Below, one piece after another: positions 13,444-35,915 of a stretch of 38,642 bases of DNA; within the stretch, counting starts at the first letter, position 1, and every line of letters begins with the position of its first letter. Under the pieces are notes generated by a model. It was not told where the DNA came from. It saw only the letters and a list, made by a program, of their open reading frames with translations, and searched no databases. The position numbers and the translations under genes are program-made. This DNA is from Verrucomicrobium sp. BvORR106 (lineage in GTDB: Bacteria; Verrucomicrobiota; Verrucomicrobiia; Verrucomicrobiales; Verrucomicrobiaceae): NCBI RefSeq assembly GCF_000739655.1, contig NZ_BATR01000147.1, forward strand, positions 1 to 38,642. The letters run 5' to 3'.

Positions 13444-13470
13444 GGAGAAAGGGAAAGGGAGGGAATGAAA

Positions 13471-13491
13471 GGGGCGCCTTTTGGGCGCCCC
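13471..13491 (-). terminator. Strong hairpin inside the dcw cluster (lysM-ftsW gap)
   Basis: Read on the transcribed strand: GGGGCGCC-CAAAA-GGCGCCCC followed by TTTC. The 8-bp stem is perfect, but the T-run is short, so it is more likely a partial terminator or mRNA processing/stability site that lowers ftsW-murG expression than a full stop. Confidence 0.55.
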
Positions 13492-13500
13492 GCAGATTGG

Positions 13501-14556: not shown

Positions 14557-14578
14557 AAGCGTCTCTCCTCGGCGGAGT

Positions 14579-15946: not shown

Positions 15947-15965
15947 GGGTGGGAGAGGCCGTGAA

Positions 15966-17105
15966 TCAACGCAGTTTGAGGGTCGCCAGGCCCACAAGGG
16001 CCAAAATTAACGACAGCATCCAAAAACGTACCACAACCTGGCTCTCCTGCCATCCCCCGAGTTCAAAATGGTGATGAATGGGAGCCATGCGGAAAATGCG
16101 GACCTTGCGCAGCTTGAAGCTGGCCACCTGGAGCATCACGGAACCCGCCTCCATGACGAAGACGCCGCCCACGATGAGGAGGATCAGTTCCTGCTTGCAA
16201 CCAATCGCCAGCGTGGGGATCGCCCCGCCCAGGGCCAGGGAACCGGTGTCCCCCATGAACATGCGCGCTGGCTGGCAGTTGAACCACAGGAATCCAAAAC
16301 ACGCCCCCACCAGGGCCATGGCCACGATGGTGAGCTCATCCGCCAGGTGAAAGTACGGGATGAGCAAGAACTTGGCGAAGTTCACATTGCTGGCCAGGTA
16401 GCAAAATCCGGCATAGGCCAGCCCCGTGCTGATGGAGCACCCCGTCGCCAGGCCATCCAGACCATCCGTGAGGTTCACCGCATTGGAGAAGCCCACGATC
16501 ATCAGCGAGAAGAAGATCACCGCAAAGAAGCCCATGTCCAGGATGAGCGGCTCCTTGAAGAACGGGATGTAGAGGCTGCGATACGTCACCACCTGGTTGT
16601 CATACGTCACTCCGCCCGGCAGTCCGTAGGCAAAGATCCACGAGACCGTGATGGCCACGGCAAACTGCCAGACCAGCTTGGTCTTCGCGCTCACGCCCTT
16701 GGAGTTTTTCCGCGCGACTTTCTCATAGTCATCCCAGAAGCCCAGCAGACCAAGCGCCAGCGTGGTGCCCAGCACCATCCACACGATCGGATTCCCCCAG
16801 TCCGTCCAGAGCAGGACAGAGAGGGTGAAGGTGGCGAGGATCATGACCCCGCCCATCGTCGGCGTGCCCGCCTTCTTCCCATGCAGGTCAAAGAGCTTCT
16901 GCACCTCTTCCTTGGAGCGAATCGGCTGCCCGACCTTCAGCGAGATGAGCTTGCGGATGACCCGTTCCCCAAACAGGAGGGACAACAGAAACGCCGTGAG
17001 ACAAGCCCCGCCGGCGCGGAAGGTGTGATAGTGCAGGAGGTTGAGCAGGGAGGAGAGCAGAGTGTCTCCAACGGAGTTCCGAAATTCAGCGAGCCAGTGT
17101 ATCAT
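15966..17105 (-). CDS. mraY: MraY, phospho-MurNAc-pentapeptide translocase
   Basis: A 379-aa membrane enzyme that transfers phospho-MurNAc-pentapeptide to undecaprenyl phosphate, giving lipid I. It shows GTPTMGGVMILATF, LGFWDDYEKVARKNSKG with the Mg-binding aspartates, NAVNLTDGLDGLATG, FMGDTGSLALGG and RMAPIHHHFELGGW. About ten membrane helices are visible; length is slightly longer than the E. coli enzyme. Its start overlaps the murF stop by the ATGA arrangement. Confidence 0.96.
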   Translation of the reverse strand: MIHWLAEFRNSVGDTLLSSLLNLLHYHTFRAGGACLTAFLLSLLFGERVIRKLISLKVGQPIRSKEEVQKLFDLHGKKAGTPTMGGVMILATFTLSVLLWTDWGNPIVWMVLGTTLALGLLGFWDDYEKVARKNSKGVSAKTKLVWQFAVAITVSWIFAYGLPGGVTYDNQVVTYRSLYIPFFKEPLILDMGFFAVIFFSLMIVGFSNAVNLTDGLDGLATGCSISTGLAYAGFCYLASNVNFAKFLLIPYFHLADELTIVAMALVGACFGFLWFNCQPARMFMGDTGSLALGGAIPTLAIGCKQELILLIVGGVFVMEAGSVMLQVASFKLRKVRIFRMAPIHHHFELGGWQESQVVVRFWMLSLILALVGLATLKLR

Positions 17106-18484
17106 GATGCCGGGTTGTCGAGATGTGTGAGCACTTGCTCCATGCCAGCAGAACGGCTTCCTTTCAACAAAACCGCATCACCTTCGTGCAACCATTCGGT
17201 GAGGCAGGCAGCGACGGCGGCATGAGATGAGAAATTTCTATAGTCTCCCGATCCACCCGAGGCTCCAGCCTGAGAGGTGATCAGGGCAGCTTCTTCACCG
17301 ACACTAAAGACGGCATCCAAGCCCAGCTCAGCAGCATACCCACCCACCTCCCGGTGACTGGATTCCGCATGCGGTCCCAGCTCCCCCATCCGACCCAGCA
17401 CGGCCACGCGACGCCCGGGAATCTTCAACCCCGCCAGCGTCTTCAGCCCCGCCCGCATGGAGTCCGGGTTCGCATTGTAGGAATCATCCAGCACGGTGAC
17501 CCCGCGCCAGGTTTTCACCTGCACACGCCCTTTGGTCAACTGCACCTCGCCCAGAGCCGCCGCGATATCCTGCGGCACCACGCCAAAGTGCCAACCCACG
17601 GCGGCTGCCAGAGCGGCATTGCCCACCATGTGTTCCCCGGGCACCGGCAGATGAACATCCACCACCACACGCCCGTCAAAGTTCAGGCTAAAGAAAGAGC
17701 CGCGGGCTCCGCTCTCCGTGAGCGTGGCCACCACATCCCCTTCGCCCACCCCAGCCAGGACGACCCGTGCATGACTTCGGGCGGCGATGGAGGAAGAAAA
17801 GTCGTCGTTGGCATTAAGCACCACCACCCCACCGTGCGGCACGGCCTCAGCCAGCGTGCCTTTCTCCTGGGCAATCCCTTCACGAGAGCCCATGTACTCA
17901 ATGTGAGCCACGCCGATGTTCGTGATGATGGCCGCATCCGGACGGGCGATCCCCGCGAGCACGGCAATCTCCCCGTGATGGTTCATGCCCATCTCCAGCA
18001 CCGCACACGTGTCCCCCTCCTCCATGCGGAGGATGGTCAGCGGCAGACCGATGTGGTTGTTAAAATTTCCCAGCGTGGCACACACCTGGTACTTCTTCCG
18101 CAACACCGCAGCGACAAGGTCCTTCGTGGACGTCTTGCCATTGCTGCCCGTGATGCCGATCACCAACGGGTTCAGGAGTTCGCGGTAAGCACGCGCCAGC
18201 TGCTGCAGCGCCAGCAGCGTGTCCGTCACCTGGATGACGGCACAGCCCAGCGCCTCCACATTCTCCGGCAGCCGGCTGACGATGACTGCCGCCGCACCGG
18301 CCTGGGCCACCTGCGGGACAAAGTCATGCGCATCAAACTTCTCCCCCACCAGGGCCACAAAGAGCTCTCCCGGCTGGATCTTCCGGGAGTCCGTATTGAC
18401 GCTGGTGCAGGTCGCAGCGGGATCACCGTGAACGAGGCGACCGCCGCTGTACGAGGCAATGGTTTCAAGAGTCAACGCCTTCAC
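17102..18484 (-). CDS. murF: MurF, UDP-MurNAc-tripeptide:D-Ala-D-Ala ligase
   Basis: A 460-aa Mur ligase that attaches D-Ala-D-Ala to complete the pentapeptide precursor. The ATP loop is VIGITGSNGKTSTKD at residues 108-122, followed by NFNNHIGLPLT, EMGMNHHGEIAVLA, NIGVAHIEYMGS and DSYNANPDSM, all standard for MurF. Overlaps by 4 bp with murE upstream and mraY downstream suggest coupled translation in a single operon. Confidence 0.96.
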   Translation of the reverse strand: MKALTLETIASYSGGRLVHGDPAATCTSVNTDSRKIQPGELFVALVGEKFDAHDFVPQVAQAGAAAVIVSRLPENVEALGCAVIQVTDTLLALQQLARAYRELLNPLVIGITGSNGKTSTKDLVAAVLRKKYQVCATLGNFNNHIGLPLTILRMEEGDTCAVLEMGMNHHGEIAVLAGIARPDAAIITNIGVAHIEYMGSREGIAQEKGTLAEAVPHGGVVVLNANDDFSSSIAARSHARVVLAGVGEGDVVATLTESGARGSFFSLNFDGRVVVDVHLPVPGEHMVGNAALAAAVGWHFGVVPQDIAAALGEVQLTKGRVQVKTWRGVTVLDDSYNANPDSMRAGLKTLAGLKIPGRRVAVLGRMGELGPHAESSHREVGGYAAELGLDAVFSVGEEAALITSQAGASGGSGDYRNFSSHAAVAACLTEWLHEGDAVLLKGSRSAGMEQVLTHLDNPAS

Positions 18485-20004
18485 TGACGTTCATCCCTCC
18501 TTTGGCGTGCCTCCAGCCGCTTTTCACCCTTGATACGGATCTCGATGTCCACCAGCTGGCGGGCCACGCGGCGATCATCGAAGGGATGCTTCACCCCATT
18601 GACGTCCTGATAGGGCTCATGCCCCTTGCCAGCGATGACCACGATGTCCCCTTCCCTCGCCCCCTTGATGGCGGTGTGAATGGCCTCCCTGCGGTCAGCA
18701 ATGAGGGCATGACTGGAGCGGGTGAACCCCTTGCGGGCATCCTCCATGATCACCTGCGGATCTTCCATGCGCGGGTTGTCGCTGGTGAGGATGCTGATGT
18801 CGCTGTTCTCCTCTACCGCACGCGCCATGAGCGGCCGCTTCAGACGGTCGCGATCGCCACCACAGCCAAAGACGGTGATGATCCGCTCCGGGCGCAGGGC
18901 CCGCGCGGTGGACAGCGCATTGACCAGACCATCCGGCGTGTGGGCATAGTCCACAAAGACGTGGAAGGCATGATTATCCGGCGTCACGCGCTCCATCCGC
19001 CCCGGGATCTGCGGTGAGGACTGCATGGCCTTCACCGTATCGCGCAAGTTACAGCCCATGCCGTGGGCCGCGGCCAGAGCTGCCAGTGAATTGTACACAT
19101 TGAACTGGCCGATCTGCGGGATGCGCACCAGCAGAGAGCGTCCCTTGTGCTCCAGCTCGAAGCTGGTGCCCGTGAGATCATAGCGCGGGTTCACCGCGCG
19201 GTAGTCCGCCGCCACACCCAGACCGTAGGTGACCAGGCCGGGATGCTCCTTGTGGGCATCCACCAGACGGCGTCCCCAGATGTCGTCCACGTTGATGACG
19301 AGCTTGCCACCGCGGGAAGCCGCCGTGGAGGAGAAGAGCTTCGACTTCGCCTTGAAGTACTCTTCCATCGTCCCGTGATAGTCCAGGTGGTCCTGGCTCA
19401 GGTTCGTGAAGACCGCTGCCGCAAAGGGCACGCCGTGGGTGCGATGCTGATCAATGGCGTGCGAGGAAACTTCCATCGCCACCGCCACGCAGCCGTGATC
19501 GCGCATTTCGGAAAGCAGACCCTGCAGTTCCAGGGACTCCGGCGTGGTATGAGTGGCCGGTTTCAACTCCCCACCCACGTCATACACCACCGTGCCCAGC
19601 AGGCCGCAGCGACGATGCGCATGGTTCAGCAAATGGTGCAGCAGGAAGGCCGTGGTGGTCTTCCCGTTGGTGCCCGTCACACCGGCCACCGCCATGTTCC
19701 GCGCAGGGTGCCCCTTGGAGGCAGCAGCCATGGCCGCCAGAGCCACGCGGGCGTTCTTCACATGCAGCCAGGTCACACTGGAGTCTTCCGGCGGCGCGGT
19801 CTCGGCCACAATGGCCACCGCCCCATCGGCCAGCGCCTTGGGAATGAAGTCGTGTCCGTCCGACTTCACACCCCGCAGGGCAAAGAACACAAAGCCAGGC
19901 TTCACCAGGCGGGAGTCATAGGCCAGGCCCGCCACTTCCACGTCCAGGCCACCACTGATGACCGGTTTATCCAAACCTTCGATAAGATCGCGCAAAATGG
20001 TCAT
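18481..20004 (-). CDS. murE: MurE, UDP-MurNAc-L-Ala-D-Glu:meso-diaminopimelate ligase
   Basis: A 507-aa Mur ligase. The ATP loop VTGTNGKTTT spans residues 109-118; TTPESLELQ, EVSSHAIDQHR, FTNLSQDHLDYHG and DYAHTPDGL follow. The DNPR motif at residues 409-412 is the signature of enzymes that add meso-diaminopimelate rather than lysine, so the organism should have DAP-type peptidoglycan. It overlaps ftsI and murF by 4 bp each. Confidence 0.96.
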   Translation of the reverse strand: MTILRDLIEGLDKPVISGGLDVEVAGLAYDSRLVKPGFVFFALRGVKSDGHDFIPKALADGAVAIVAETAPPEDSSVTWLHVKNARVALAAMAAASKGHPARNMAVAGVTGTNGKTTTAFLLHHLLNHAHRRCGLLGTVVYDVGGELKPATHTTPESLELQGLLSEMRDHGCVAVAMEVSSHAIDQHRTHGVPFAAAVFTNLSQDHLDYHGTMEEYFKAKSKLFSSTAASRGGKLVINVDDIWGRRLVDAHKEHPGLVTYGLGVAADYRAVNPRYDLTGTSFELEHKGRSLLVRIPQIGQFNVYNSLAALAAAHGMGCNLRDTVKAMQSSPQIPGRMERVTPDNHAFHVFVDYAHTPDGLVNALSTARALRPERIITVFGCGGDRDRLKRPLMARAVEENSDISILTSDNPRMEDPQVIMEDARKGFTRSSHALIADRREAIHTAIKGAREGDIVVIAGKGHEPYQDVNGVKHPFDDRRVARQLVDIEIRIKGEKRLEARQRRDERQ

Positions 20005-21926
20005 TGGGCACCTCCGTTGCTCAGCGGGGAAATCTCCCGCTGGACGGCATGAGCCACCGCCATGGTATGAAGACTTTGTTTCATGAGTTGAGAAAAGATG
20101 GGGGCGGCCAGCTTGCCGCCGTAGAGTTCTTCCGGAGCGCCGTGGGGATCATCCACCACAATGATGGCGCATAGCTCGGGCTTCTCTGCGGGAGCAAACC
20201 CGGCGAAGGACACGCAGTAGTGTCCGTCTTCATAGCCCCGGCCGTCATCACGGCGGCGCTGGGAGGTGCCGGTCTTCCCGGCCACGATGATGTCCTCGAT
20301 GCCCGCCTGCTTGCCGGTGCCTTTCTGCCCCTGCACCACCTCGATCATCGCCTGGCGCATCTGCTCAGCCGTGCGCGGTGAGCACACCTGCCGCACCACT
20401 TCCGGCTTGAGCTGGCGGATGATGTTGCCCTTCTCATCTTTCACTTCCTTGATGAGCTGGGGTTTCATGAGATTACCTCCATTGGCGATCACGCCCACGG
20501 CCATCGTCATCTGCAGCGGCGTCACCGTGACGGCGTGCCCCATCGCCATGCGGGAGAAGGTGAGGCCGTCCCAGGCCTTGCGCGGCCACACGGTCCCCGT
20601 GATCTCGCCCGTCAGCTCAATGCCGGTGCGCTGGCCGAAGCCGAAGTTCTTCACGTACTCGAGGTACTTGTCATCCCCCACCCGGAGGGCCAGTAGGTAG
20701 GCCGCGCGGTTGCTGCTCTGGGCAAAGGCGTTCAGCACGGTCACCGGACCGTTCACGTGATCTTTGATGCGCTGGGAGGCAAAGACCTTGAGGCTGGGAT
20801 CCACGTTGATGGTCTCTCCCAGTCCGGTCACCTTGCGGTCCAGAGCACCCGTGTAAGCCACGACTTTGAACACCGAGCCCGGCTCGTACTGGGCACTCAC
20901 GGCCGGATTGGCAATGATCCCCTTCATCGTCTCCCGGTCGATGTGGGGACGACTGGCCATCGCCAGCACCGCACCCGTTTTGGGATCGATCAACACGGAA
21001 GTGATGCGCTTGGGCTTGTACTGGACGAACGCCTGCTCCAGCACCTGCTCCATCGTATCCTGCAGGTTCATGTCGATGGTGAGCGTCACCTCATGCCCAT
21101 GCCGGGGCTCCTCGCCCTCACCGCGGAAGGAGGTGATCTCACGCCCCTTGCGATCTTTTTCAATCCACTGGAAGCCATCGGAGCCTGAGAGCTCGGTGTT
21201 GAGCACCGCTTCCACGCCTTCACGGCCGATCTGGATGTGCTTCTCGCGCTTGCGCCCTCCTGGAGTCTCCTCCTCCAGCACGGTCTTCTCATTCACATAG
21301 CCCAGCACGTGCGTCAGGCGTTCATCCGCCGGGTAGAAGCGGCGCACGCTGGAGCGCAGGCTGATCGCGAAGATGTTCCCCTCCTTGAGCCGAGCCTTCC
21401 AGATGTCGGCCGTCTCCGTGGGCAGCCCTTTGATCAGAGGAAACTCGATGCGCTTCTCATCAGCCATCTGCAGCGCCAGATCCGCTGGGACCGGCACCCC
21501 AGTCTCATTCAGCACGGCAGTGACCACGGCCGTGGCGTGCTCCCGGTACTGGGAGATCACGTCCTCCGGCTTCATGCCATTCACCACCTCAGAGAGCGGG
21601 CGTTTCTGAATGCGTGCCAGCCGGGTGCGCACGTCATTGAGATCCCGCAGGTGCTGCGTGTTTACCCAGACCTCATGCACCAGCTTGTCATGCGCCAGCA
21701 GCTCGCCGTTGCTGTCACGGATGACCCCGCGCATGGCGGGCAGCACCACGCGCTGCTTCAGCATGCCATCACCCCGGCGGGCCCAAACGTCATGATCCAC
21801 CGCCTGCAGCCCGTAGAGCCGGAACGCCACCCCGCCGAAGGCAGCCAGCAGCAGCGCCAGCATCACCGCGATACGGTGGGGCACCCATCTGTTCAGGTCG
21901 GGAGTTGGGGAGTCAGGAGCGTTCAT
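20001..21926 (-). CDS. ftsI: FtsI-type penicillin-binding protein (septal transpeptidase)
   Basis: A 641-aa class B penicillin-binding protein. One N-terminal membrane anchor (about residues 17-40) precedes the pedestal domain with RGVIRDSNGELLA and GREGVEAVLN. The transpeptidase motifs are complete: SVFK with catalytic Ser351, SSN at 404-406, and KTGT at 551-554. It crosslinks septal peptidoglycan with FtsW. No PASTA domains are present. Position between ftsL and murE is the usual one for ftsI. Confidence 0.95.
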   Translation of the reverse strand: MNAPDSPTPDLNRWVPHRIAVMLALLLAAFGGVAFRLYGLQAVDHDVWARRGDGMLKQRVVLPAMRGVIRDSNGELLAHDKLVHEVWVNTQHLRDLNDVRTRLARIQKRPLSEVVNGMKPEDVISQYREHATAVVTAVLNETGVPVPADLALQMADEKRIEFPLIKGLPTETADIWKARLKEGNIFAISLRSSVRRFYPADERLTHVLGYVNEKTVLEEETPGGRKREKHIQIGREGVEAVLNTELSGSDGFQWIEKDRKGREITSFRGEGEEPRHGHEVTLTIDMNLQDTMEQVLEQAFVQYKPKRITSVLIDPKTGAVLAMASRPHIDRETMKGIIANPAVSAQYEPGSVFKVVAYTGALDRKVTGLGETINVDPSLKVFASQRIKDHVNGPVTVLNAFAQSSNRAAYLLALRVGDDKYLEYVKNFGFGQRTGIELTGEITGTVWPRKAWDGLTFSRMAMGHAVTVTPLQMTMAVGVIANGGNLMKPQLIKEVKDEKGNIIRQLKPEVVRQVCSPRTAEQMRQAMIEVVQGQKGTGKQAGIEDIIVAGKTGTSQRRRDDGRGYEDGHYCVSFAGFAPAEKPELCAIIVVDDPHGAPEELYGGKLAAPIFSQLMKQSLHTMAVAHAVQREISPLSNGGAQ

Positions 21927-22351
21927 CGGCGCGAAGGCTTGCCCGTGGAGGGCGTGGATTCTGAGTCGGCGGTGGCAGGAGAAGGAGTGACGGGTTCAGC
22001 AACAGGGACGGCCGCGGGGACGTGGTCCGGCGCAGGGGGAACCTTGATGATGCTCTCGGGCTGGATGTTTTTCAACCTGGAGCGCTGACTTGTGAGACGA
22101 TCCGTGAGGTTTTTCCGCGAAAGCGCCTCTCCCACCTTCATGTCCAGGGTGCGAATCTCCTGCTCCAGCGCGGAGATTTCCCGCTCCACCAGTTCCTGCT
22201 GACGACCGATCGCGTAGGTGCGGTTCTTCGTAAAAATGTGCAGCAACGCCGCAGCACCCACGGAAATGGCGATCACCACGAGGAGGAAAGCCACCCCGGA
22301 ACGCCGTGGTGTGGCGCGGTTTCGGGGGAGGCTGAGCTCGGGTTCTTTCAT
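21923..22351 (-). CDS. ftsL: FtsL-like bitopic division protein with a Pro-rich tail
   Basis: A 142-aa protein between rsmH and ftsI, overlapping each by 4 bp, exactly where ftsL lies in other dcw clusters. It has a basic cytoplasmic tail, one membrane helix (GVAFLLVVIAISVGAAALL, 19-37) and a coiled coil (RQQELVEREISALEQEIRTL and following, about 50-95). The last 40 residues form an Ala/Pro/Ser/Thr-rich tail not typical of FtsL. Sequence similarity to known FtsL is weak, as usual for this protein, so the call rests on size, topology and position. Confidence 0.78.
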   Translation of the reverse strand: MKEPELSLPRNRATPRRSGVAFLLVVIAISVGAAALLHIFTKNRTYAIGRQQELVEREISALEQEIRTLDMKVGEALSRKNLTDRLTSQRSRLKNIQPESIIKVPPAPDHVPAAVPVAEPVTPSPATADSESTPSTGKPSRR

Positions 22352-23343
22352 TGGAGCAGTTTCTCTGCGGTGCGGAGTTTGGCGCTGCGGGAACGGGGAT
22401 TGCGTTTGACCTCCTCCTCCGTGGCCTCCTGCGGCTTACGGTGCAGCAGCCTCAGGCAATGCTCCGGATTGCGGCGGGGCTCCGGCCACTCCGGGCGGTC
22501 CAGCCACTCCGTGGAGAGCCGGTTGAAGGCCTGCTTCACCATGCGGTCCTCCAGCGAGTGAAAGGAAATAACTGCCAGCCTCCCTCCCGGCTTCAGCCAG
22601 GTGGGTGCGGCGTGCAGGAAGTCCGCCAGGGCGGCCAGTTCGTCATTCACCGCGATGCGCAGCCCCTGAAACGTGAGCGTGGCCGGGTGGGTCTTCCCCC
22701 GGCGGGGAATCACACTGGCAATCGCCTCTGCCAGATCTGAGGTGGTGGTGAAGGGCTTCTGCTCACGGCGCTGCACCAGAGCCCGCACAATGCGGCGCGA
22801 CTGGCGCTCCTCCCCATACTCCCACAGGATGCGCTCCAGCTCCGCCGGCTCATCCTCGTTCACCAGGTCCGCCGCCGTACGACCGCCGCCGGCATTCATC
22901 CTCATGTCCAGCGGCCCCTCATGCATGAAGGAGAAGCCACGGGCGGGCACATTCAGCTGGTACGAGGAAACGCCCAAGTCCACCAGCAGACCGTCCAGAG
23001 CCGTGATGCCCAGCGCCTGAAGCACCGCGGGAAATTCGCGAAAGTTGGACTGCACACTCCGGAACTGGCCCGTGGCAGCGTAAGCCTTGAGCCGCTCCCC
23101 GGCATGGTTCAGCGCGTCCGTGTCCTGATCGAGCCCGATCACCTCCGCCCCGGCCTGGAGCAGCAGCGAGGTATGTCCCCCGCCTCCCAGGGTGCCATCC
23201 AGGATGACCTTGCCAGAAGCTGGGGCGAGAGCCGCCACCACTTCTGCCGGGAGCACCGGCAGATGGTAACCCGTGCCTCCGCCTGCGTCTGCTCCGGTGG
23301 CGGAGATATCGGCGGTGGGAGAAGAGCTGGGCTGGGCGGTCAT
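22348..23343 (-). CDS. rsmH: RsmH, 16S rRNA (cytosine-1402-N4) methyltransferase
   Basis: A 331-aa SAM-dependent methyltransferase (formerly MraW) acting on C1402 of 16S rRNA. The landmarks are YHLPVLPAEVVAAL, the SAM loop LDGTLGGGGHTSLLLQ, DGLLVDLGVSSYQLN, RGFSFMHEGPLDMRMN, and the C-terminal AVISFHSLEDRMVKQAF. It carries about 25 extra Ser/Ala/Gly-rich residues at the N-terminus. It is the first gene of the cluster in this orientation; mraZ, often its upstream neighbour, is absent from the window. Confidence 0.95.
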   Translation of the reverse strand: MTAQPSSSPTADISATGADAGGGTGYHLPVLPAEVVAALAPASGKVILDGTLGGGGHTSLLLQAGAEVIGLDQDTDALNHAGERLKAYAATGQFRSVQSNFREFPAVLQALGITALDGLLVDLGVSSYQLNVPARGFSFMHEGPLDMRMNAGGGRTAADLVNEDEPAELERILWEYGEERQSRRIVRALVQRREQKPFTTTSDLAEAIASVIPRRGKTHPATLTFQGLRIAVNDELAALADFLHAAPTWLKPGGRLAVISFHSLEDRMVKQAFNRLSTEWLDRPEWPEPRRNPEHCLRLLHRKPQEATEEEVKRNPRSRSAKLRTAEKLLQ

Positions 23344-25973: not shown

Positions 25974-26070
25974 GCGGGAGCCTTGTAACACCGCGCATTA
26001 GTGCACTGGGGAGCGCAGGCCGCTGGCCTGCTGCAAGGTCAGCTAGCCCGAAGATCAGTCGCTCTCGAAA

Positions 26071-26184
26071 CCCGATGCCGGAGGCATCAAAGCCATTAGC
26101 CGGATGGTTGAAGGAGCGTAGCGACTGACACCTCCGGAAGGTCAAGGTGAGTATTGCATCCCGGAGTGGATGCCAGCGACGTCC
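26071..26184 (+). repeat. 114-bp repeat, copy A
   Basis: Begins CCCGATGCCGGAGGCAT and contains GCCATTAGCCGGATGG, a core GGAGCGTAGCGAC and ACCTCCGG, then GCATCCCGGAGTGGATGC. Copy B at 27291-27404 has the same length with about 7 mismatches. The CCGGA(T)GGT/ACCTCCGG arms form a stem around the core. Confidence 0.85.
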
Positions 26185-26402: not shown

Positions 26403-26440
26403 TTCACCAAACCCTCACGAACCCTTCACGTCTAATTCAC
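26403..26440 (+). promoter_or_regulatory. Four-box 11-bp direct-repeat operator upstream of paralogue 1
   Basis: TTCAC at 26403, CTCAC at 26414, TTCAC at 26425 and TTCAC at 26436: four boxes at exact 11-bp steps, 51 nt before the ATG. The same layout is found upstream of both other paralogues. Tandem 11-bp direct repeats are the binding format of PhoB/OmpR-class regulators (Pho boxes). Confidence 0.7.
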
Positions 26441-26491
26441 ACCTCAGGACTTCACACTGCATCGCCACTTCGACATGCTTCCTGCAACATC

Positions 26492-27208
26492 ATGAAGCAA
26501 CCGTCCGAAGCCGATTCCCACCAAACTCCCCACCCCGCCGTATGGCCAATCTTCCTCGGCGCGTTGACAATCTACTTCGCGTCATACTTGCTTGGAGACG
26601 TCATTCTCCTGACTAGCAGCTTTGAGAACTGGTCCGATTTTGCTGTCGTAAAACGGTATGCTGGCGAAACGCTGGCCAAGGGGGCGTTTGCCGGCTTCAT
26701 CTCATTATTCTGCCCCCTGGGGCTTACACTCTTGTTCATCCCCATCGCCTTCCAATCCCACCGCAGACTCATGGTCGCTCTGGTGGCCCCGATGTTGATC
26801 CTCTCAATTCTAATGGTCTACATGGCGTTCACCAGTCCCAGCACATCAAAGGATCGACTGGCTCAACAACTGAAGATACCACTACCAGCAGCTCACGACC
26901 GCTACTTGGCATATCACCCTCAGGGCTCCAACTTGCTGGTTCGCATCGGTTCCGGCATACGCGATTACTACAGTTTCCATCTTGATTCTGAATCCAGGAA
27001 AACATTCCTCGGCAACCTTCATCCCTCGGAAGAACGCAAGCTTCAACTGCAAAGCCCGTTAGGGCGTCATGCGGACATGCCGCCAGAGATTGCCTATGAT
27101 CTGCAATCTCCTGACTTGGTCGTGTACCCCGCCGGATGGGATACCGATATTGTCACGCATCCAGCGTCGTCACGCATACTGATCATTTACTATTCTCCTC
27201 CTCACTAA
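26492..27208 (+). CDS. Membrane protein of unknown function, paralogue 1 of 3
   Basis: A 238-aa protein with three membrane helices in the first 110 residues (about 18-42, 70-95, 100-122) and a soluble C-terminal domain of about 115 residues. The C-domain carries motifs shared by all three paralogues: YLAYHPQGSN, GIRDYYSFHLD, a Glu-rich SEERKLQL stretch, PDLVVYP and a final hydrophobic strand RILIIYY. I do not recognise the family. The start ATG is fixed by exact alignment of the upstream region with paralogue 3. No good ribosome site is visible. It is probably its own transcription unit under the four-box operator. Confidence 0.82.
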   Translation: MKQPSEADSHQTPHPAVWPIFLGALTIYFASYLLGDVILLTSSFENWSDFAVVKRYAGETLAKGAFAGFISLFCPLGLTLLFIPIAFQSHRRLMVALVAPMLILSILMVYMAFTSPSTSKDRLAQQLKIPLPAAHDRYLAYHPQGSNLLVRIGSGIRDYYSFHLDSESRKTFLGNLHPSEERKLQLQSPLGRHADMPPEIAYDLQSPDLVVYPAGWDTDIVTHPASSRILIIYYSPPH

Positions 27209-27290
27209 CTTGGCGATGACTCAGTCCGAGGAAGCATGAGGACCGCACGCCAAGTGTGATTGATGCGCCTGTGGGCACCGGGCCGGGCTA

Positions 27291-27404
27291 CCCGATGCCG
27301 GAGGCATTGCAGCCATTAGCCGGATGGTTGAAGGAGCGTAGCGACTGACACCTCCGGAAGATGAAGATGAGTATTGCATCCCGGAGTGGATGCCAGCGAT
27401 GTCC
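27291..27404 (+). repeat. 114-bp repeat, copy B
   Basis: Same length as copy A at 26071-26184 and about 94% identical. The mismatches cluster in two short stretches, while the stem-forming arms are unchanged. Confidence 0.85.
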
Positions 27405-27457
27405 ATCAGCACGCGGAGTTGCTGTCACCCTCCTGGGTGAACGCAGATTCTTGTTCT

Positions 27458-27508
27458 CCAGGGGTATCGCTACGCTCACCCCCTGGCTAATGGCTGGGAT
27501 GCCTCCGG
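27458..27508 (-). repeat. Inverted, stem-diverged relative of the 114-bp repeat
   Basis: CCAGGGG (27458-27464) pairs with CCCCTGG (27480-27486) around TATCGCTACGCTCAC, followed by CTAATGGCTGGGATGCC. Read on the minus strand this matches the GGCAT...AGCCATTAG...GAGCGTAGCGA order of copies A and B, but with a different, still complementary stem. Confidence 0.7.
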
Positions 27509-27554
27509 AATCCATTGCCCCACGACAGTCACCCGCGCACCGATCCATCCCCCA

Positions 27555-27592
27555 TTCACAAAATACTCACACAACACTCACCTCGAATTCAC
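27555..27592 (+). promoter_or_regulatory. Four-box 11-bp direct-repeat operator upstream of paralogue 2
   Basis: TTCAC at 27555, CTCAC at 27566, CTCAC at 27577 and TTCAC at 27588. The bases between the boxes differ strongly from the other two copies, yet the boxes and the 11-bp phase are intact, and the array again ends 51 nt before the start position. Confidence 0.7.
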
Positions 27593-27643
27593 ACCTCAAG
27601 GCTTCTCAGCCGCACGTCCATTCGCAATGCTCTTGAAAAGCCT

Positions 27644-28378
27644 ATAAAACAACATCTCGCCCCTCATCCCCCTCCCGAATCAAAACCCTCGCCCCGTCAC
27701 AGCATCTCGGGAGGCAAGGTGTTCTTCGGCTCAGCACTGTTGTACTTCCTCGCCTACTATCTTCCGGACATCATCCTCTTTTCCACCAGTTTTGAGGACT
27801 GGAAGGATCTCGGCTTTGCCTTGCAGAATGCCGGCACCTCTTTCATCAGATCGCTCCCCATGGCCTTGCTGTCCCTCGCATGCCCCTTGGTGATCGCGGT
27901 GCCTTTGATTGAGATCGCTCCTCCCACTCGACGGAGCCGACTCATTGCCGCATCCTGCCCCCTTCTATGCCTTGCAGGACTGATGCTCTACTCGCAAGCC
28001 CCTCCTCATACGTCCAAGGCTCGCTATCAGAAATTCACCCGAACCCCTGTACCACCGGATGCGAAGCACTATCGTTCCTTTCATCCCTTTGGAGCAAACA
28101 TTTTCAGCCACCCCTTCACGGGCACTCGGGACTACTACTCGTTCCAGCTCAATCCCAAAGCCCATCGAGACTTTCTCAACACACTTACGTTGTCAGAAGA
28201 CTTTTACAAAGACCGGCTAACCCAAAACGTTCGCATTCTGGGAGAAGTGCCATCTGATTTCAGACCCAACCTGCTCCAGCCGGACCTCCAAGTCTATCGA
28301 ATCAATCACTCGGGTTTCGTTGTAACGCGTCCTGGCACGCAGGATATCCTGGTTATCTGGTGGCAGATCCCACACTGA
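27644..28378 (+). CDS. Membrane protein of unknown function, paralogue 2 of 3 (ATA at the expected start)
   Basis: A 244-aa reading frame if counted from the codon that aligns with the ATG of the other two copies. That codon is ATA (27644-27646), followed by AAACAACA as in paralogue 3 (ATGAAACAACC). The frame continues open upstream, but only through the operator region. Translation could begin at the rare ATA, or at GTG 27719, which has GGGAGG just before it and keeps all three membrane helices (VFFGSALLYFLAYYLPDIILF onwards). The C-domain has the family motifs YRSFHPFGAN, GTRDYYSFQLN, PDLQVYR and DILVIWW, with no internal stop or frameshift, so the gene is either still used or only recently lost. 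Confidence 0.7.
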   Translation: MKQHLAPHPPPESKPSPRHSISGGKVFFGSALLYFLAYYLPDIILFSTSFEDWKDLGFALQNAGTSFIRSLPMALLSLACPLVIAVPLIEIAPPTRRSRLIAASCPLLCLAGLMLYSQAPPHTSKARYQKFTRTPVPPDAKHYRSFHPFGANIFSHPFTGTRDYYSFQLNPKAHRDFLNTLTLSEDFYKDRLTQNVRILGEVPSDFRPNLLQPDLQVYRINHSGFVVTRPGTQDILVIWWQIPH

Positions 28379-28417
28379 GCCGCCATCTGTTCTTCCCCTT
28401 GAATGTCGGCCACAACA

Positions 28418-28471
28418 CGCTGACTGACGCCCCCGGCAAGATGCCTGGAACAGCACGCAAGATGCGTGCGC
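28418..28471 (-). repeat. 54-bp double-hairpin repeat, copy 2 (inverted)
   Basis: Reverse complement of the 9462-9515 repeat with 5 mismatches. The GCACGCA/TGCGTGC stem is unchanged. The second stem is shorter here (GGCA-AGA-TGCC). Confidence 0.8.
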
Positions 28472-28508
28472 CCCCCACGTCCCTGACATAGCTCGCACAA
28501 TAGCAGCC

Positions 28509-28574
28509 TATCCCTGAAGGGGATATCTACCTCAGCCCAGGGTTGGACGAGCCCTAAGCGAGTCACACCCTGGG
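28509..28574 (+). repeat. Two-hairpin repeat, copy 3
   Basis: Hairpin 1 is TATCCC-TGAAG-GGGATA (28509-28525). Hairpin 2 (28536-28574) has outer stem CCCAGGGT/ACCCTGGG around GACGAGC-CCTAA-GCGAGTC. Compared with copy 2 the stems differ on both arms in a matching way. Confidence 0.8.
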
Positions 28575-28668
28575 TATCAGGGGCGGCAGAGCCTCAGGTG
28601 TGGAGGCAGACTTCATCCTCTCCCTCCCCACCGCCATCAACTCCCCCACGTCCGTCACCCGCGCCACC

Positions 28669-28687
28669 AAGTGCCGGGACGGCTCTT
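28669..28687. repeat. AAGTGCCG-GGA-CGGCTCTT hairpin, copy 2
   Basis: As 26286-26304 but with one T-T mismatch in the stem; the following CTACATTCC is the same. Confidence 0.7.
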
Positions 28688-28762
28688 CTACATTCCCTTC
28701 GGCGAATTCTCGTAGTTTCCTTCACCCCCTTCCCGCCTCAACCCGCTGACTGACGCCCCCAC

Positions 28763-28794
28763 CACCACTCCACCACTCCACCACTCCACCACTC
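28763..28794 (+). repeat. Tandem CACCACTC x4
   Basis: Four perfect copies of an 8-bp unit end four bases before the operator array of paralogue 3. Copy number could vary by slippage. Confidence 0.85.
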
Positions 28795-28797
28795 CCC

Positions 28798-28835
28798 TTC
28801 ACCAAACCCTCACAACTCCTTCACGTCGAATTCAC
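28798..28835 (+). promoter_or_regulatory. Four-box 11-bp direct-repeat operator upstream of paralogue 3
   Basis: TTCAC at 28798, CTCAC at 28809, TTCAC at 28820 and TTCAC at 28831, ending 51 nt before the ATG, in the same phase as the other two arrays. Confidence 0.7.
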
Positions 28836-28886: not shown

Positions 28887-29606
28887 ATGAAACAACCTCC
28901 GCCCGTCCTCCTCCCCAAACGCACCTGCCATCCGGCGGGCTGGCCGGTGTTCTTTGGTTGCGTGGGACTTTACCTCTCCGCCTTCTATCTGGCGGACCTC
29001 GTGCTTCTCGCCAGCTCCTCAGGTTCGTGGAACAACATCGGTTTCATCCTCCGACAGGCTCCGGGACCGCTGATTCACGGGATCGTCCCCGCCCTGGGGT
29101 CGCTCATCTGCCCGATTGGGCTGACTTTCCTCTTCCTCCCTCTGGCGCTGGACTGCCGCCGCCGATTCCTGATCGCCGTCGCTGGCCCGCTCCTGGCACT
29201 GACCGTGATCATGATCTGGTCTCAGGTTCGCGAGCCTCACACCTCCCAGCGACGGATCGAGCGTCTCAGCAAAGCGCCTCTGCCACAGGAGCATCGGAAC
29301 TACCTCGCTTATCACCCGCTGGGGAGCACCACGTTTGCCCGTGCCATGGTGGGCATCAGAGAGTACTGTTCCTTCGAGCTCGATCCCGAGTCCCTGCGGC
29401 AGTATGTCGGATCCCGTCAGCCCTCCATCGAGCGCAAAGTACGACTGCAAACGTCGCCCTATCGCGTAGGAGACCTTCCCGCCGAGCTTGGCTGCGATCC
29501 TCTGGCTCCCGATGCCGTGTTCTACGAGCTGAGTGCCGGAGCCGATCTGATCGCCCGCCCTGGTTCGGCACGGGTGTTGATCGTCTGTTTTGGGTATGCA
29601 CGCTAA
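28887..29606 (+). CDS. Membrane protein of unknown function, paralogue 3 of 3
   Basis: A 239-aa protein with the same layout as paralogues 1 and 2: helices at about 18-42 (WPVFFGCVGLYLSAFYLADL), 70-95 (LICPIGLTFLFLPLAL) and 100-122 (FLIAVAGPLLALTVIMIW), then a soluble domain with YLAYHPLGST, GIREYCSFELD, SIERKVRLQ, DAVFYEL and RVLIVCFG. The GC content looks higher than in copies 1 and 2 and the linker sequences differ, so the duplication is old. The ATG has GGGAG 5 nt upstream. Function unknown; nothing catalytic is recognised. Confidence 0.82.
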   Translation: MKQPPPVLLPKRTCHPAGWPVFFGCVGLYLSAFYLADLVLLASSSGSWNNIGFILRQAPGPLIHGIVPALGSLICPIGLTFLFLPLALDCRRRFLIAVAGPLLALTVIMIWSQVREPHTSQRRIERLSKAPLPQEHRNYLAYHPLGSTTFARAMVGIREYCSFELDPESLRQYVGSRQPSIERKVRLQTSPYRVGDLPAELGCDPLAPDAVFYELSAGADLIARPGSARVLIVCFGYAR

Positions 29607-31148: not shown

Positions 31149-31414
31149 CTACCTTTCCTTCGGCACGCGCTCCATCACTCCATCACTCCTCCCCCACTCC
31201 CATTTCCGCCTCCCCAGCCCTGACTTTTTGTGACGGCTCCCTACGCATTTATCCCGTCACCCCCTCAAATTAGCCCGTTTTATCCCCTCTCCGCTGGGCA
31301 TCCTTCCGCACCACGCCAGATCACGCCTGCTGATTCCGTATGTTTGTCCTGATGGACAGACAGATCCCGCAACGGCATATCCCCAGCCCAAGATGCACCC
31401 GCCCACACCCCTCC

Positions 31415-33640
31415 ATGGGAAGATGGGGATTCATCGCGACGGCGCTGTTCTGCTTCACCCTCAACACCCCTGCCGCTGAGGCCACCGAGGCACCTCAAAA
31501 AAACCTGCCTCTCAACTTCGTCAACGACATCGAGCCCATCCTGACAAAAGCAGGATGCAACTCCGGCGGATGTCATGCCAAGGCGGGCACCGGACAGCGA
31601 GGATTCCGCCTCTCCCTGCTCGGCTTCGAGCCCCAGGAAGACTACGAATACATCGTCAAAGAGGGCAAGGGCCGCCGCGTCTTCCCCGCTGCGCCAGAGC
31701 AGAGCCTGCTGGTGCTGAAGGCCGCCAACATTGTCCCTCACGGCGGTGGCAAGAAACTGGACCCCGCTTCGCACGAGTACGCCACGCTCGTCCGCTGGAT
31801 CCGCGAAGGCATGGCCTACGGCCGTCCTGAAGATGCCAAGCTGGCGAGCATCGCCGTGGAGCCTGCCGTCCTGTCCATGAAGGCCAAGACGACGCAGCAG
31901 CTCAAAGTCACCGCCCGATTCACCGATGGCTCGACACGTGACGTCACCTCCCTGTCCCTCTACGAAGCCAATGACAAGAGCATGGCGGAGACGACCGAGG
32001 AAGGACTGGTGACCACACAAGACATCCCTGGCAACGTGGCGGTAATGGTGCGCTACGCCGGGCAGGTCTCCGTCTTCAGCGTGACCATTCCCTTGGGAGC
32101 GCCCGTCGAGGCCCTGCCTCCTGCGAAGAACTTCGTGGATGAGCATGTCTTTGCCAATCTCAAGCGCATCGGCATCCCGCCTTCGCCAGTAGCTGACGAT
32201 GCCACCTTCCTGCGTCGCGTCTCCCTCGACATCGCAGGCCGACTGCCGACGCTGGAAGAGGTCCAGGCGTTCCAAACTTCCCAAGCACCAGACAAGCGGG
32301 ATCAAGCCATCGAGTCGCTCTTGAGCAGTCCGGACTATGCCGACTACTTCGCCAACAAGTGGACGGCCCTCCTCAAGAACAAGCGCGATGACGCGGCCGA
32401 TATTACCGCGAACTTTGCCTTCCACGCCTGGATGCGGGACAGCCTCCTGGCCAACCGTCCCTATGACGACATCGTGCGCCAGATCCTGGCCGCCACCGGC
32501 ACCATCGTCTCCAATCCCCCCGTGGCCTGGTACAAGCGCGTGAAGGAACCCCACCTGCAGCAAGAAGATGTGGCGCAACTCTTCCTGGGCGTGCGCATGC
32601 AGTGTGCGCAGTGCCATCACCATCCCTTTGAGCGATGGAGCCAGCAGGACTACTACAGCCTCTCCGCCTTCTTCAGCCAGGTGGGTCGCAAGCCTACCGC
32701 GATCGCCGGAGAGGACCTCATCTTCCACAAGCGGGGCACGGCCCAGTTGGAGAACAAGAAGAGCCGCACGCCAGTGAAACCTGCCGCGCTGGGTGGACCC
32801 ATCCTGGACATCGCCCCCGATGACGATCCGCGCCTGCAACTTGCCGACTGGATGGGAGCCAAGGACAACCCCTTCTTCGCCACTGCCCTGGTGAACCGCT
32901 ACTGGAAGCACTTCTTCAAGCGTGGGCTCATCGAACCAGAGGATGATATCCGCGATTCCAATCCCGCGACCAATCCGGCGCTGCTCAGCGACCTGGCCAA
33001 GCACTTCGTCGAAAGTGGGTTCGACCTGAAGGAGGTCGTGCGGGTCATCACGCGCAGCCAGACCTACCAGCTCAGTACCATGCCCAATGATCACAATGCG
33101 GTGGACCGGCAGAACTTCTCCCACTTCTATCCCAAGCGGATGCAGGCCGAGGTGTTGCTGGATGCCATCAACCAGGTGACAGGCGCCCAGTCCGACTTCG
33201 CCGACCTTCCGCCCGGCACTCGCGCCATCTCCCTGCCGGACAACAGTTACAACCGCGCCTCCCCCTTCCTGAAAGTCTTCGGCCGTCCTGAAGGGGCCAG
33301 CGTGTGCGAGTGCGAGCGTGTGCAATCCTCCAGCCTGGCCCAGAGCCTGCACCTCATGAACGCCGCGGATGTGAAGGCCAAGCTGGCTGTGGGCAACGGT
33401 CGCGCCGATCGCCTGAGCAAGGCGGAGAAATCTGTGCCCGACCGCATTCGCGAGCTTTATCAGGCCGCCCTCTCCCGCGAGCCCACCGCTGAAGAAATCC
33501 GACTCAGCGAGACCCACCTGCTCAAGCCGCGGCCGGATGCGCAAGACAAGCCGCTCCCTGCCGCCCAAGCCCTCAAACAGGGCTACGAGGACCTCATCTG
33601 GGCGCTCGTGAACACCAAAGAGTTTCTCTACAACCACTAA
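31415..33640 (+). CDS. Secreted DUF1549/DUF1553 (PSCyt2/PSD1) protein with Ig-like domain
   Basis: About 741 aa from the ATG at 31415, which opens a clean signal peptide (MGRWGFIATALFCFTLNTPAAEA); an ATG at 31340 would add 25 polar residues. Domains: an N-terminal cytochrome-like segment FVNDIEPILTKAGCNSGGCH with a CX4CH spacing instead of CXXCH; a bacterial Ig-like domain (LKVTARFTDGSTRDVTSLSL); PSCyt2/DUF1549 (LRRVSLDIAGRLPTLEEV, ending QCAQCHHHPFERW with a true CXXCH); and PSD1/DUF1553 (FFATALVNRYWKHFFKRG, MQAEVLLDAINQVTG, LYQAALSREPTAEEI). The family is abundant in Planctomycetes and Verrucomicrobia; its biochemical role is unproven. First gene of a four-gene operon, 13 bp before the next. 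Confidence 0.92.
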   Translation: MGRWGFIATALFCFTLNTPAAEATEAPQKNLPLNFVNDIEPILTKAGCNSGGCHAKAGTGQRGFRLSLLGFEPQEDYEYIVKEGKGRRVFPAAPEQSLLVLKAANIVPHGGGKKLDPASHEYATLVRWIREGMAYGRPEDAKLASIAVEPAVLSMKAKTTQQLKVTARFTDGSTRDVTSLSLYEANDKSMAETTEEGLVTTQDIPGNVAVMVRYAGQVSVFSVTIPLGAPVEALPPAKNFVDEHVFANLKRIGIPPSPVADDATFLRRVSLDIAGRLPTLEEVQAFQTSQAPDKRDQAIESLLSSPDYADYFANKWTALLKNKRDDAADITANFAFHAWMRDSLLANRPYDDIVRQILAATGTIVSNPPVAWYKRVKEPHLQQEDVAQLFLGVRMQCAQCHHHPFERWSQQDYYSLSAFFSQVGRKPTAIAGEDLIFHKRGTAQLENKKSRTPVKPAALGGPILDIAPDDDPRLQLADWMGAKDNPFFATALVNRYWKHFFKRGLIEPEDDIRDSNPATNPALLSDLAKHFVESGFDLKEVVRVITRSQTYQLSTMPNDHNAVDRQNFSHFYPKRMQAEVLLDAINQVTGAQSDFADLPPGTRAISLPDNSYNRASPFLKVFGRPEGASVCECERVQSSSLAQSLHLMNAADVKAKLAVGNGRADRLSKAEKSVPDRIRELYQAALSREPTAEEIRLSETHLLKPRPDAQDKPLPAAQALKQGYEDLIWALVNTKEFLYNH

Positions 33641-33653
33641 CCGCTCCCCTTTC

Positions 33654-35915
33654 ATGATCAGCAGGCACTTGTCCCTCCCCACTCTGGGCGTCGCGGTTTC
33701 CGTATGGTTCGCAGCGTCTTCACCCTCCCAGGCGCAGCAGGTCACCCTGCCGCTGCCCCGACTGCTCACCCTCATGCCCATGGGTGCCCCCTCCGGCGGG
33801 TCCGTGGAAATCACTCTCACAGGGGAAAACCTGGAGGAAGTCACCGCGCTGCTCTTCTCCACCCCGCAGATCACCGCCCACCCGGTGACGAGCTCAGACG
33901 GCACCTCCGTACCGAGCAAGTTCCTCGTCACCGTGGCCCCGGGTACCCCTGCCGGGGTGCATGATGCTAGAGTCCTCTCCAGACTCGGCATCTCCTCCGT
34001 CCGGGCCTTTGCCGTGAGCAACCTCAAGGAAATAACTCGCACCGCGGCCAACAACACCGTGGAGACGGCCCTGCCGCTGGAACTCGACTCGATCTGCAAC
34101 GCCAGCATGACGAAACGGGCGGTCGATCACTATGCCTTCCAAGCCCGGCAGGGACAAGCCATCGTCGTAGATTGCGCGGCGGCAGGCATCGATTCACGAC
34201 TGACCCCCGTGGTGGTCATCGCCGATGCCCAAGGACGGGATCTGCTGGTGAACCGCACCGGTGGACGCCTGAACTTCACGCCCCCGGCCGACGGCCGCTA
34301 TCTCATCAAGGTGAATGACCTCACTTTCCAGGGCGGTGAACGCTACTTCTACCGGCTCGCCTTGCAGGCAGCCAATGGCAAGACACCCCTGCCCCGCCAA
34401 CCCGAGACACAGAGCGTGAGCGCCATGTCCTGGCCTCCCTCCGGTCTGGCCGCCACACCTGCCAGCCGGGAAACAGAGCCCAACAACCGTGCCCCCGAAA
34501 CCCAGAAGATCACCCTGCCCTGCGATATCGGCGGGAACTTCTACCCCGCCGCAGATGTGGACACCTTTGAGTTTGCGGCCAAGAAAGGCGAAACTTGGTG
34601 GGTGGAGGTGGCCTCCGAGCGCCTCGGCCGCGACACGGATCCCTTCGTCTTGGTGCAGCAGGTGAAGCAGGCGGATGGCAAAGAGACGCTCACCGATGTG
34701 GCGGAGCTCTACGACATCGCCAGCCCGATGAAGCTCTCCTCCAACGGCTACGCCTATGACGGCCCGCCGTACAATGCCGGCTCTCCCGATGTGAACGGGA
34801 AGTTCGAGGTAAAAGAGGACGGCACCTACCGGCTGCAATTGCGGGATCTCTTTGGCGGCACCCGCAGCGATCCGGACAATGAGTACCGGCTTCTGGTCCG
34901 GAAAGCCGCCCCCGACTTCTCCCTGGCCGCCTGGGGTGTGCACATGACTCTGCGCAACGGGGACCGGGCCGCCCTTTCCAAGCCCATGGCCCTGCGCGCG
35001 GGTGAGTCCCGGGTCTTTGAGGTGGTCACCCAGCGTCGCGATGGCTTCGACGGGGAGATCCAGCTCTCCATGGAGGGGCTCCCGGCAGGAGTCACCGCCA
35101 GCGGCCTGAAGATCGGCGCCGGCAAGACCTACGGTCACCTCGTCCTCACCGCCGCCAGCGATGCCACCGATGCCTTCTCCCTGGCCACGATCACGGGCAA
35201 AGCCCTCATCAACGGCCAGGAAACCACCCGCTCCTGCCGCATGGCCACCATGAAATGGCCGGTCAAGGATGCGAAGGGGGAAATCCCCGCGCCTCGTCTC
35301 ATGGCCGATGTGCCTGTCTCAGTGAGCAACTCTGAGCCCGCTCCACTCACCATCGAACCCGCCGACAGCAAGGTGGTGGAGGCCACCGTTGGCACCACGG
35401 TGACGATTCCGCTGAAGATCACCTGGCGCAATGAGTTCACCGGCACCTCTCTCAAGCTCAGGGCCTATGGCGACGGCTTTGCCGGGTTGAAGGAAATAGA
35501 CATCCCCATGAAGGCGGAGACAACCACGCTCACGCTCGACCTCGCCGCGTTGAAGCTCCCGGTGGGAGAGCACGCCCTGGCCCTCTATGGCACCGCCGTG
35601 AGCAAGTACCGCTACAATCCCGCCGCCGTGCCCCTGGCCGAGGCGGAGCAAAAGAAGGCCGAGCTGCTGGCCCAAGCCGCCGCTGAGGAAGCCAAGAAAA
35701 TCGCCGCCACCGATGCCGCCGCTGCCAAAGCTGCCGCGGCCAAGGCCCAACAGGCCGGCACCTTGATGGCTGAGGCCACCAAGAGAATGAAAGCTGTCTC
35801 CACCACTGCGGAACCACGGGACACCGTGGACATCATCGTCTCCGCCCCCATCCGCCTCTCCGTTAAACCCGCCCCCGTGGCAGCCGCTACCGCAGCCGTC
35901 TCCAGCCAGCCTTGA
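33654..35915 (+). CDS. Secreted pre-peptidase-domain-type protein with Ala-rich coiled coil
   Basis: A 753-aa protein with a signal peptide (about residues 1-27, ending SPSQAQ). Early IPT/PPC-like beta-domains show PLPRLLTLMPMGAPSGGSVE and LTGENLEEV. One pre-peptidase C-terminal-like unit is DHYAFQARQGQAIVVDCAA...DGRYLIKVNDL, and another VDTFEFAAKKGETWWVEVASERLG...DGTYRLQLRDLFGG. Later beta-domains follow, then an Ala/Lys/Glu-rich coiled coil (LAEAEQKKAELLAQAAAEEA and on, about 660-720). No protease domain. Proteins of this type accompany DUF1549/DUF1553 proteins in these phyla and may bind or scaffold them at the cell surface (inference). Confidence 0.82.
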   Translation: MISRHLSLPTLGVAVSVWFAASSPSQAQQVTLPLPRLLTLMPMGAPSGGSVEITLTGENLEEVTALLFSTPQITAHPVTSSDGTSVPSKFLVTVAPGTPAGVHDARVLSRLGISSVRAFAVSNLKEITRTAANNTVETALPLELDSICNASMTKRAVDHYAFQARQGQAIVVDCAAAGIDSRLTPVVVIADAQGRDLLVNRTGGRLNFTPPADGRYLIKVNDLTFQGGERYFYRLALQAANGKTPLPRQPETQSVSAMSWPPSGLAATPASRETEPNNRAPETQKITLPCDIGGNFYPAADVDTFEFAAKKGETWWVEVASERLGRDTDPFVLVQQVKQADGKETLTDVAELYDIASPMKLSSNGYAYDGPPYNAGSPDVNGKFEVKEDGTYRLQLRDLFGGTRSDPDNEYRLLVRKAAPDFSLAAWGVHMTLRNGDRAALSKPMALRAGESRVFEVVTQRRDGFDGEIQLSMEGLPAGVTASGLKIGAGKTYGHLVLTAASDATDAFSLATITGKALINGQETTRSCRMATMKWPVKDAKGEIPAPRLMADVPVSVSNSEPAPLTIEPADSKVVEATVGTTVTIPLKITWRNEFTGTSLKLRAYGDGFAGLKEIDIPMKAETTTLTLDLAALKLPVGEHALALYGTAVSKYRYNPAAVPLAEAEQKKAELLAQAAAEEAKKIAATDAAAAKAAAAKAQQAGTLMAEATKRMKAVSTTAEPRDTVDIIVSAPIRLSVKPAPVAAATAAVSSQP

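Follow-up and report, generated by a model that had tools for sequence, protein, structure and literature searches.

A predicted CreBC envelope-stress regulon with doubled cre/blr tags in Verrucomicrobium and other Verrucomicrobiae

Described CreBC systems and the arrays of strain BvORR106

The cre/blr tag, TTCAC-N6-TTCAC, is described in excerpts of the published accounts as an element of promoters controlled by CreB in Escherichia coli and by BlrA in Aeromonas (PMC4689548, PMC3660660), and a homolog of this tag lies between creC and creD in Stenotrophomonas maltophilia (PMC4689548). It is likewise present between creC and creD in the DNA of E. coli MG1655. With respect to inducing conditions, passages of a report on Pseudomonas aeruginosa state that penicillin-binding-protein (PBP) loss and β-lactams raise creD via CreBC and that this system contributes to β-lactam resistance (PMC2654508); for E. 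coli, a rise in creD and the cbr genes is described in response to colicin M, a peptidoglycan-damaging agent (PMC3599342). The subject of this work is a 38,642-nucleotide (nt) stretch of DNA from Verrucomicrobium sp. BvORR106 (contig NZ_BATR01000147.1; here, the window), in which three tandem arrays of TTCAC-like boxes each precede one of three paralogous membrane-protein genes. To judge from the sequence, these arrays are very probably binding sites for the CreB component of a CreBC two-component system, and activation of the three genes by CreB appears likely by analogy. The arrays are best read as part of a putative CreBC envelope-stress regulon that exists outside Proteobacteria and uses doubled tags.

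The verrucomicrobial arrays share with the cre/blr tag the TTCAC-N6-TTCAC core, the 11-bp period, the head-to-tail orientation, and a position before creD. They differ from it in usually having four boxes instead of two, in including some CTCAC and TTCAT variants, and in their targets and phylum. The arrangement known from S. maltophilia and P. aeruginosa, with creB-creC, the tag, and creD, has a counterpart in the creC-array-creD order of six Verrucomicrobiae genomes. In contrast to those systems, however, the genome of strain BvORR106 has no creD adjoining its creBC genes, and two Verrucomicrobiae genomes hold VIT-VWA and exosortase genes in the place of creD.

Arrays in the window

All three window arrays lie on the + strand and repeat the YTCAC-N6 unit with a period of exactly 11 bp, and in each of them the last box is separated by 51 nt from the start position of the gene:

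26403..26440, + strand: four-box array of cre/blr type upstream of membrane-protein gene 1; boxes TTCAC, CTCAC, TTCAC, and TTCAC at 26403, 26414, 26425, and 26436; kept in Verrucomicrobium sp. BvORR034
27555..27592, + strand: four-box array before copy 2; boxes TTCAC, CTCAC, CTCAC, and TTCAC (two CTCAC, two TTCAC)
28798..28835, + strand: four-box array before copy 3; boxes TTCAC, CTCAC, TTCAC, and TTCAC; kept in Verrucomicrobium sp. BvORR034

The box positions, the spacing, and the distance to the start positions, all listed in the initial annotation, were borne out by the window sequence. In the window, three consecutive YTCAC-N6 units with at most 1 mismatch occur 7 times, counting overlapping matches, and always inside the three arrays (0.02 expected, from 100 shuffles). 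Across the 8.69 Mb of the entire genome, 5 places, 3 of which are the window arrays, hold the exact three-box pattern, and none holds the reversed pattern; the four-box pattern with up to 3 mismatches gave 18 overlapping matches, counted as 14 arrays, and 0 matches for the reversed control. An exact TTCAC-N6-TTCAC pair, i.e., the cre/blr tag itself, is present in the arrays of copy 1 (26425-26440) and copy 3 (28820-28835). The copy 2 array (27555-27592) contains no such exact pair, though its boxes fit YTCAC throughout. Exact two-box matches number 37 in this genome vs 7 for the reversed control; many of the 37 are located in large open frames and are probably due to chance (30 of the 37 places were examined).

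Pairwise comparison of the three copies revealed identity at 58 of 60 box positions, 33 of 54 filler positions, and 92 of 153 positions of the 51-nt leader, in line with the earlier remark that the boxes have been retained while the filler drifted. The boxes are also kept before both of the copies that are present in strain BvORR034, as would be expected from that remark.

CreBC of strain BvORR106

A further array of the same genome (contig C165, positions 19869-19906), two mismatches away from four TTCAC boxes, precedes a response regulator/kinase (creB-creC) gene pair. The regulator scores 312.9 bits against the NCBIfam CreB model (cut-off, 273) and the kinase 536.1 bits against the CreC model (cut-off, 356). 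This regulator shares 49.1% identity with E. coli CreB vs 37.6% with PhoB. Among the 12 full-length OmpR-class regulators encoded in the genome, the other 11 are at most 38.6% identical to E. coli CreB; in the C-terminal domain, the identity to E. coli CreB is 45.0% for the C165 regulator and at most 33.3% for the others. The 350 nt upstream of the other 11 genes, the two best scorers against the PhoB model included, contain no array on the gene's own strand (at most 10 of 15 box matches). A response regulator of the OmpR/PhoB class, proposed at the outset as the protein that binds the boxes, remains the likely binder, and CreB is the predicted one. The CreD-family match of this genome (contig C172) is weak, at 25.9 bits, and lies away from creBC; its 3.4-kb locus has no three-box match (11 or more of 15).

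Arrays and CreC across Verrucomicrobiae

In a set of 236 Verrucomicrobiae genomes, CreC was detected (E value of 1e-60 or better) in 44, and 38 of these are over the family cut-off. The four-box array (up to 3 mismatches) is found in 38 of the 44 CreC-positive genomes, including 32 of the 38 over the cut-off, vs 40 of the 192 CreC-negative ones (Fisher p = 4e-16, or 3e-15 without the genus Verrucomicrobium, with the caveat that related genomes are not independent). The matches themselves number 108 in the CreC-positive genomes (reversed control, 7) and 56 in the CreC-negative ones (control, 15). The exact three-box pattern is a weaker marker, being present in 13 of 44 and 17 of 192 genomes, respectively.

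The region before creB was readable in 24 of the 30 creBC loci taken. In nine of these 24, the strand of creB carries three boxes (matching at 13 or more of 15 positions) with a period of 11; the same test yielded 0 loci for periods 8-10 and 12-14, 0 for the opposite strand, and 1 for the reversed box. In the 400 nt after creC, a three-box array on the strand of creC was found in 4 of the 30 loci. Comparison of coordinates showed that at least 18 genomes have a four-box array within 1.5 kb of creC, always on its strand. Four of these arrays are before creB (in BvORR106 [G000], BvORR034 [G152], G147, and G227), and fourteen are after creC.

The gene that follows the array is creD in six genomes, where it is the next open frame, as recognized by Pfam (G064 and G093) or by tblastn and the frame (G226, G155, G024, and G231). 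In G117, a CreD match starts ∼400 nt past the array, but as the two are not connected by one long open frame, this genome was left out of the six. Searches for CreD and VIT-VWA past the arrays of G170, G199, G104, G175, and G214 gave no match. Two genomes from two other families, G042 and G092, have the order creBC-array-VIT-VWA-exosortase. At these loci (L186 and L187), the two-component system adjoins a sorting enzyme and one likely substrate. A similar grouping, in which a VIT-VWA target accompanies a sorting enzyme and a two-component system, is known as the proteobacterial dedicated sortase system (TIGR03785/TIGR03787/TIGR03788). The set encoded by strain BvORR106 differs from it in that the VIT-VWA protein is below the TIGR03788 cut-off, the enzyme belongs to the exosortase family, and the regulators score as CreB and CreC.

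Box constraint and promoter layout

Twelve of the 14 arrays of strain BvORR106 have a counterpart in strain BvORR034, where 16 of the 17 array places were inspected. In these 12 pairs, 2 of 240 box positions differ vs 40 of 216 filler positions, a contrast that should be read with the understanding that pairing via the boxes favors box identity and that up to 3 mismatches per array were allowed. The pairs were matched by eye on the sequence, with the flanking genes checked for the C63, C106, and creBC pairs.

When 32 arrays were aligned on the last box, A was found at +11 nt in 20 and T at +15 nt in 23 of them (p = 2e-7 and 3e-10, respectively, against a flat 20% background, with related rows among the 32). 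These positions fit a -10 hexamer that begins 10 nt past the last box. In many of these promoters, this box thus seems to stand in for the -35 element.

Other genes next to the arrays

On contig C106 of strain BvORR106, an array is located near a gene for a VIT-VWA protein, which is followed by an exosortase-family gene, and this arrangement is kept in BvORR034. The VIT-VWA protein matches TIGR03788 at 390 bits, below the cut-off of 551.65. Class A PBPs encoded on contig C46 and on contig C48 of G227 are 46% identical, and each has an array before its likely start; for the C46 protein, the likely ATG lies ∼53 nt after the third good box, an assumption that had to be made because the longest open frame begins upstream of the array. 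Small membrane-type proteins that belong to no Pfam family are encoded next to arrays on contig C117 and on contig C2 of G223 and are 52% identical over 159 residues. A 441-residue protein encoded on contig C31 is 56% identical to its relative on contig C20 of G071, and its gene is in an apparent operon with a gene for a MoxR-type ATPase; in G233, the array is 90 nt from a MoxR-type gene. The remaining array neighbors are varied.

The three membrane-protein genes

The genes that follow the window arrays are as follows:

26492..27208, + strand: membrane-protein gene copy 1; 238 amino acids, ATG start; ortholog in BvORR034 broken by a stop or frame change
27644..28378, + strand: membrane-protein gene copy 2; ∼244 amino acids; start reads ATA; start uncertain or gene decaying
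28887..29606, + strand: membrane-protein gene copy 3; 239 amino acids, ATG start; intact in both Verrucomicrobium genomes, 90% identical

Of the three starts assumed in the initial annotation, those of copies 1 and 3 are ATG codons, but the middle one reads ATA. The first listed start in the frame of copy 2 is a TTG at 27515, and no in-frame ATG is found near 27644; given the ATA, copy 2 may be badly expressed or decaying. No counterpart of copy 2 was aligned in BvORR034. The proteins are paralogs, with copies 2 and 3 being 33 and 39% identical to copy 1, and the DNA upstream of the three genes can be aligned.

None of the three proteins matches a Pfam or NCBIfam model over its cut-off, and none matches CreD (PF06123) at E values up to 1. 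A structure model of copy 3 (four sequences; mean predicted local distance difference test score, 70.8) has approximately four helices at the N terminus, and its C-terminal domain is mixed; in a Foldseek comparison of this only moderately confident model with PDB, 0 of the 262 listed matches reached an E value of 0.001 or better. The family was found in 2 of the 236 genomes, both from Verrucomicrobium, and a scan of wider genome contigs gave one locus, in BvORR034. The three membrane proteins are restricted to the genus in this genome set and are partly decaying. A fourth, distant paralog is encoded on contig C42 at 26144 (locus L164, from position 2121), with one such copy also in BvORR034 (G152); no array was seen in the 260 nt inspected upstream of it.

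Proposed mechanism and alternative explanations

In the proposed scheme, CreC would sense cell wall trouble, as shown by others in Proteobacteria, and phosphorylate CreB. Phosphorylated CreB would occupy the direct repeats in the form of head-to-tail dimers, each subunit of which would contact one 11-bp TTCAC-N6 unit; an array of four boxes would then hold two dimers. At many promoters, where the last box would replace the -35 element and a -10-like hexamer follows 10 nt on, CreB would be expected to recruit RNA polymerase. The predicted targets include creBC itself, creD where present, and the class A PBP, along with the VIT-VWA surface protein and exosortase, the small membrane proteins, and the three window paralogs of Verrucomicrobium, which would be stress-induced. 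The observations behind this scheme are the motif, its period and strand, its conservation, its co-occurrence with CreC, and its location beside creBC and creD, whereas binding, phosphorylation, the direction of regulation, and the signal are predicted. A more far-reaching proposal, offered tentatively and somewhat doubtful as a whole, is that CreBC is an old envelope-stress switch common to Verrucomicrobiota and Proteobacteria. Its output would be a surface and cell wall repair set that consists of a class A PBP, a dedicated exosortase with a single VIT-VWA substrate, a MoxR operon, and small membrane proteins that can replace one another, with CreD as just one of them; the window paralogs would correspond to CreD in a form amplified in this genus and would be controlled through doubled tags that hold two dimers.

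The initial annotation had suggested PHO boxes, with phosphate starvation switching on the three genes through a PhoB-like regulator. PhoB-class regulators indeed bind 11-bp direct repeats, and Streptomyces PHO boxes resemble GTTCACC, so the regulator class and the direct-repeat logic are shared; no pst or PhoB link is seen here, however. All regulators of the genome score below the PhoB cut-off, the array's sole two-component neighbor passes the cut-offs for CreB and CreC instead, and no array (15 or more of 20) was found in 16 kb around the two pstB genes (L033). On these grounds and those of the upstream scans of the other regulators, PhoB control was rejected, and its remaining probability is very small; across the class, the arrays track CreC. 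Marginally more room, though still very little, is left for another OmpR-class regulator with CreB-like specificity, CreB then being one member of an overlapping network. The genome encodes a dozen such regulators, and the specificity of the C165 protein is itself deduced, but only the CreB gene among them has an upstream array, the array follows the presence of CreC, and the C-terminal domain of the C165 protein is the one nearest to that of E. coli CreB.

It is scarcely credible that the arrays are alike merely because promoters were copied along with genes, the boxes being under no selection. The paralogy of the genes and their alignable upstream DNA would fit such copying, but the different conservation of boxes and filler among the copies would not. 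The same contrast recurs at 12 unrelated array pairs between species, which refutes this explanation in essence, even allowing for the box-based pairing, and the same arrays occur at creBC and creD in other families. As for clusters of DnaA boxes, the exact three-box matches in two CreC-negative genomes of the same family (G124 and G119, loci L106 and L107) contain TTATTCAC and precede genes for proteins of 452 and 426 amino acids, respectively, which may be dnaA. The window arrays, however, lack TTATNCACA nonamers and precede membrane-protein genes, so that DnaA binding there has a negligible probability; such clusters may explain part of the CreC-negative background.

Several observations weigh against the assignment of the arrays to CreBC or against its importance for the window genes. 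The window arrays include CTCAC boxes, a variant of the tag, and at 10 nt past the last box, where a -10-like hexamer usually begins, their promoters have none: in copy 1, CACACT occurs two bases farther on, and copies 2 and 3 have nothing clear. Six of the 44 CreC-positive genomes have no four-box match, 40 of the 192 CreC-negative ones do have it, and 15 of the 24 regions upstream of creB lack a three-box array at 13 or more of 15. The spacing controls are not entirely clean: after creC, period 9 yields one three-box locus per strand, and at looser thresholds, periods 10 and 13 each yield a single two-box locus upstream of creB, where a three-box locus of period 9 was also found once, on the opposite strand. 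In three genera, represented by BvORR106 (L001/L011), G071 (L158), and G233 (L155), the MoxR-linked arrays are all turned the same way, pointing away from the gene; the action of CreB may be different at these sites and could involve repression or a divergent mode. Finally, given the lack of an ATG in copy 2 and the disruption of copy 1 in BvORR034, the products of the window genes may matter little.

Relation to published work and implications

The titles returned by a literature search on CreBC in Verrucomicrobia deal with the ecology of urban streams and with a virus of algae, and nothing was found that joins exosortase with CreD or with the VIT domain. The suggestion that the system had not been described before holds in part: the tag itself has been published as cre/blr, but its doubled form, the phylum, and the targets appear new in the literature searched, which would make this a switch of a known kind in a new setting. 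The occurrence of the doubled tag across Verrucomicrobiae near creBC, creD, class A PBP, and VIT-VWA/exosortase genes points to an envelope function that would predate the use of CreBC in Proteobacteria, and the arrays supply a ready list of candidate CreBC targets.

Surroundings of the array region

Approximately 3 kb separates the block of membrane-protein genes from rsmH, where a run of cell wall synthesis genes ends. This cell wall and division run (window positions 11043-23343, - strand) encodes MurG-type, FtsW, three Mur ligase, MraY-type, FtsI-type PBP, and RsmH proteins, the names being deduced from Pfam matches. On the other side, a 942-residue open frame (31280-34108, - strand), with a 766-residue frame on the opposite strand, gave no Pfam or NCBIfam match at E values up to 1. 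Before copies 1 and 2, at 26070-26184 and 27290-27404, there is a repeat of ∼115 bp with short inverted stretches, which has 46 full or partial BLAST matches in the genome of BvORR106 and is also present in BvORR034.

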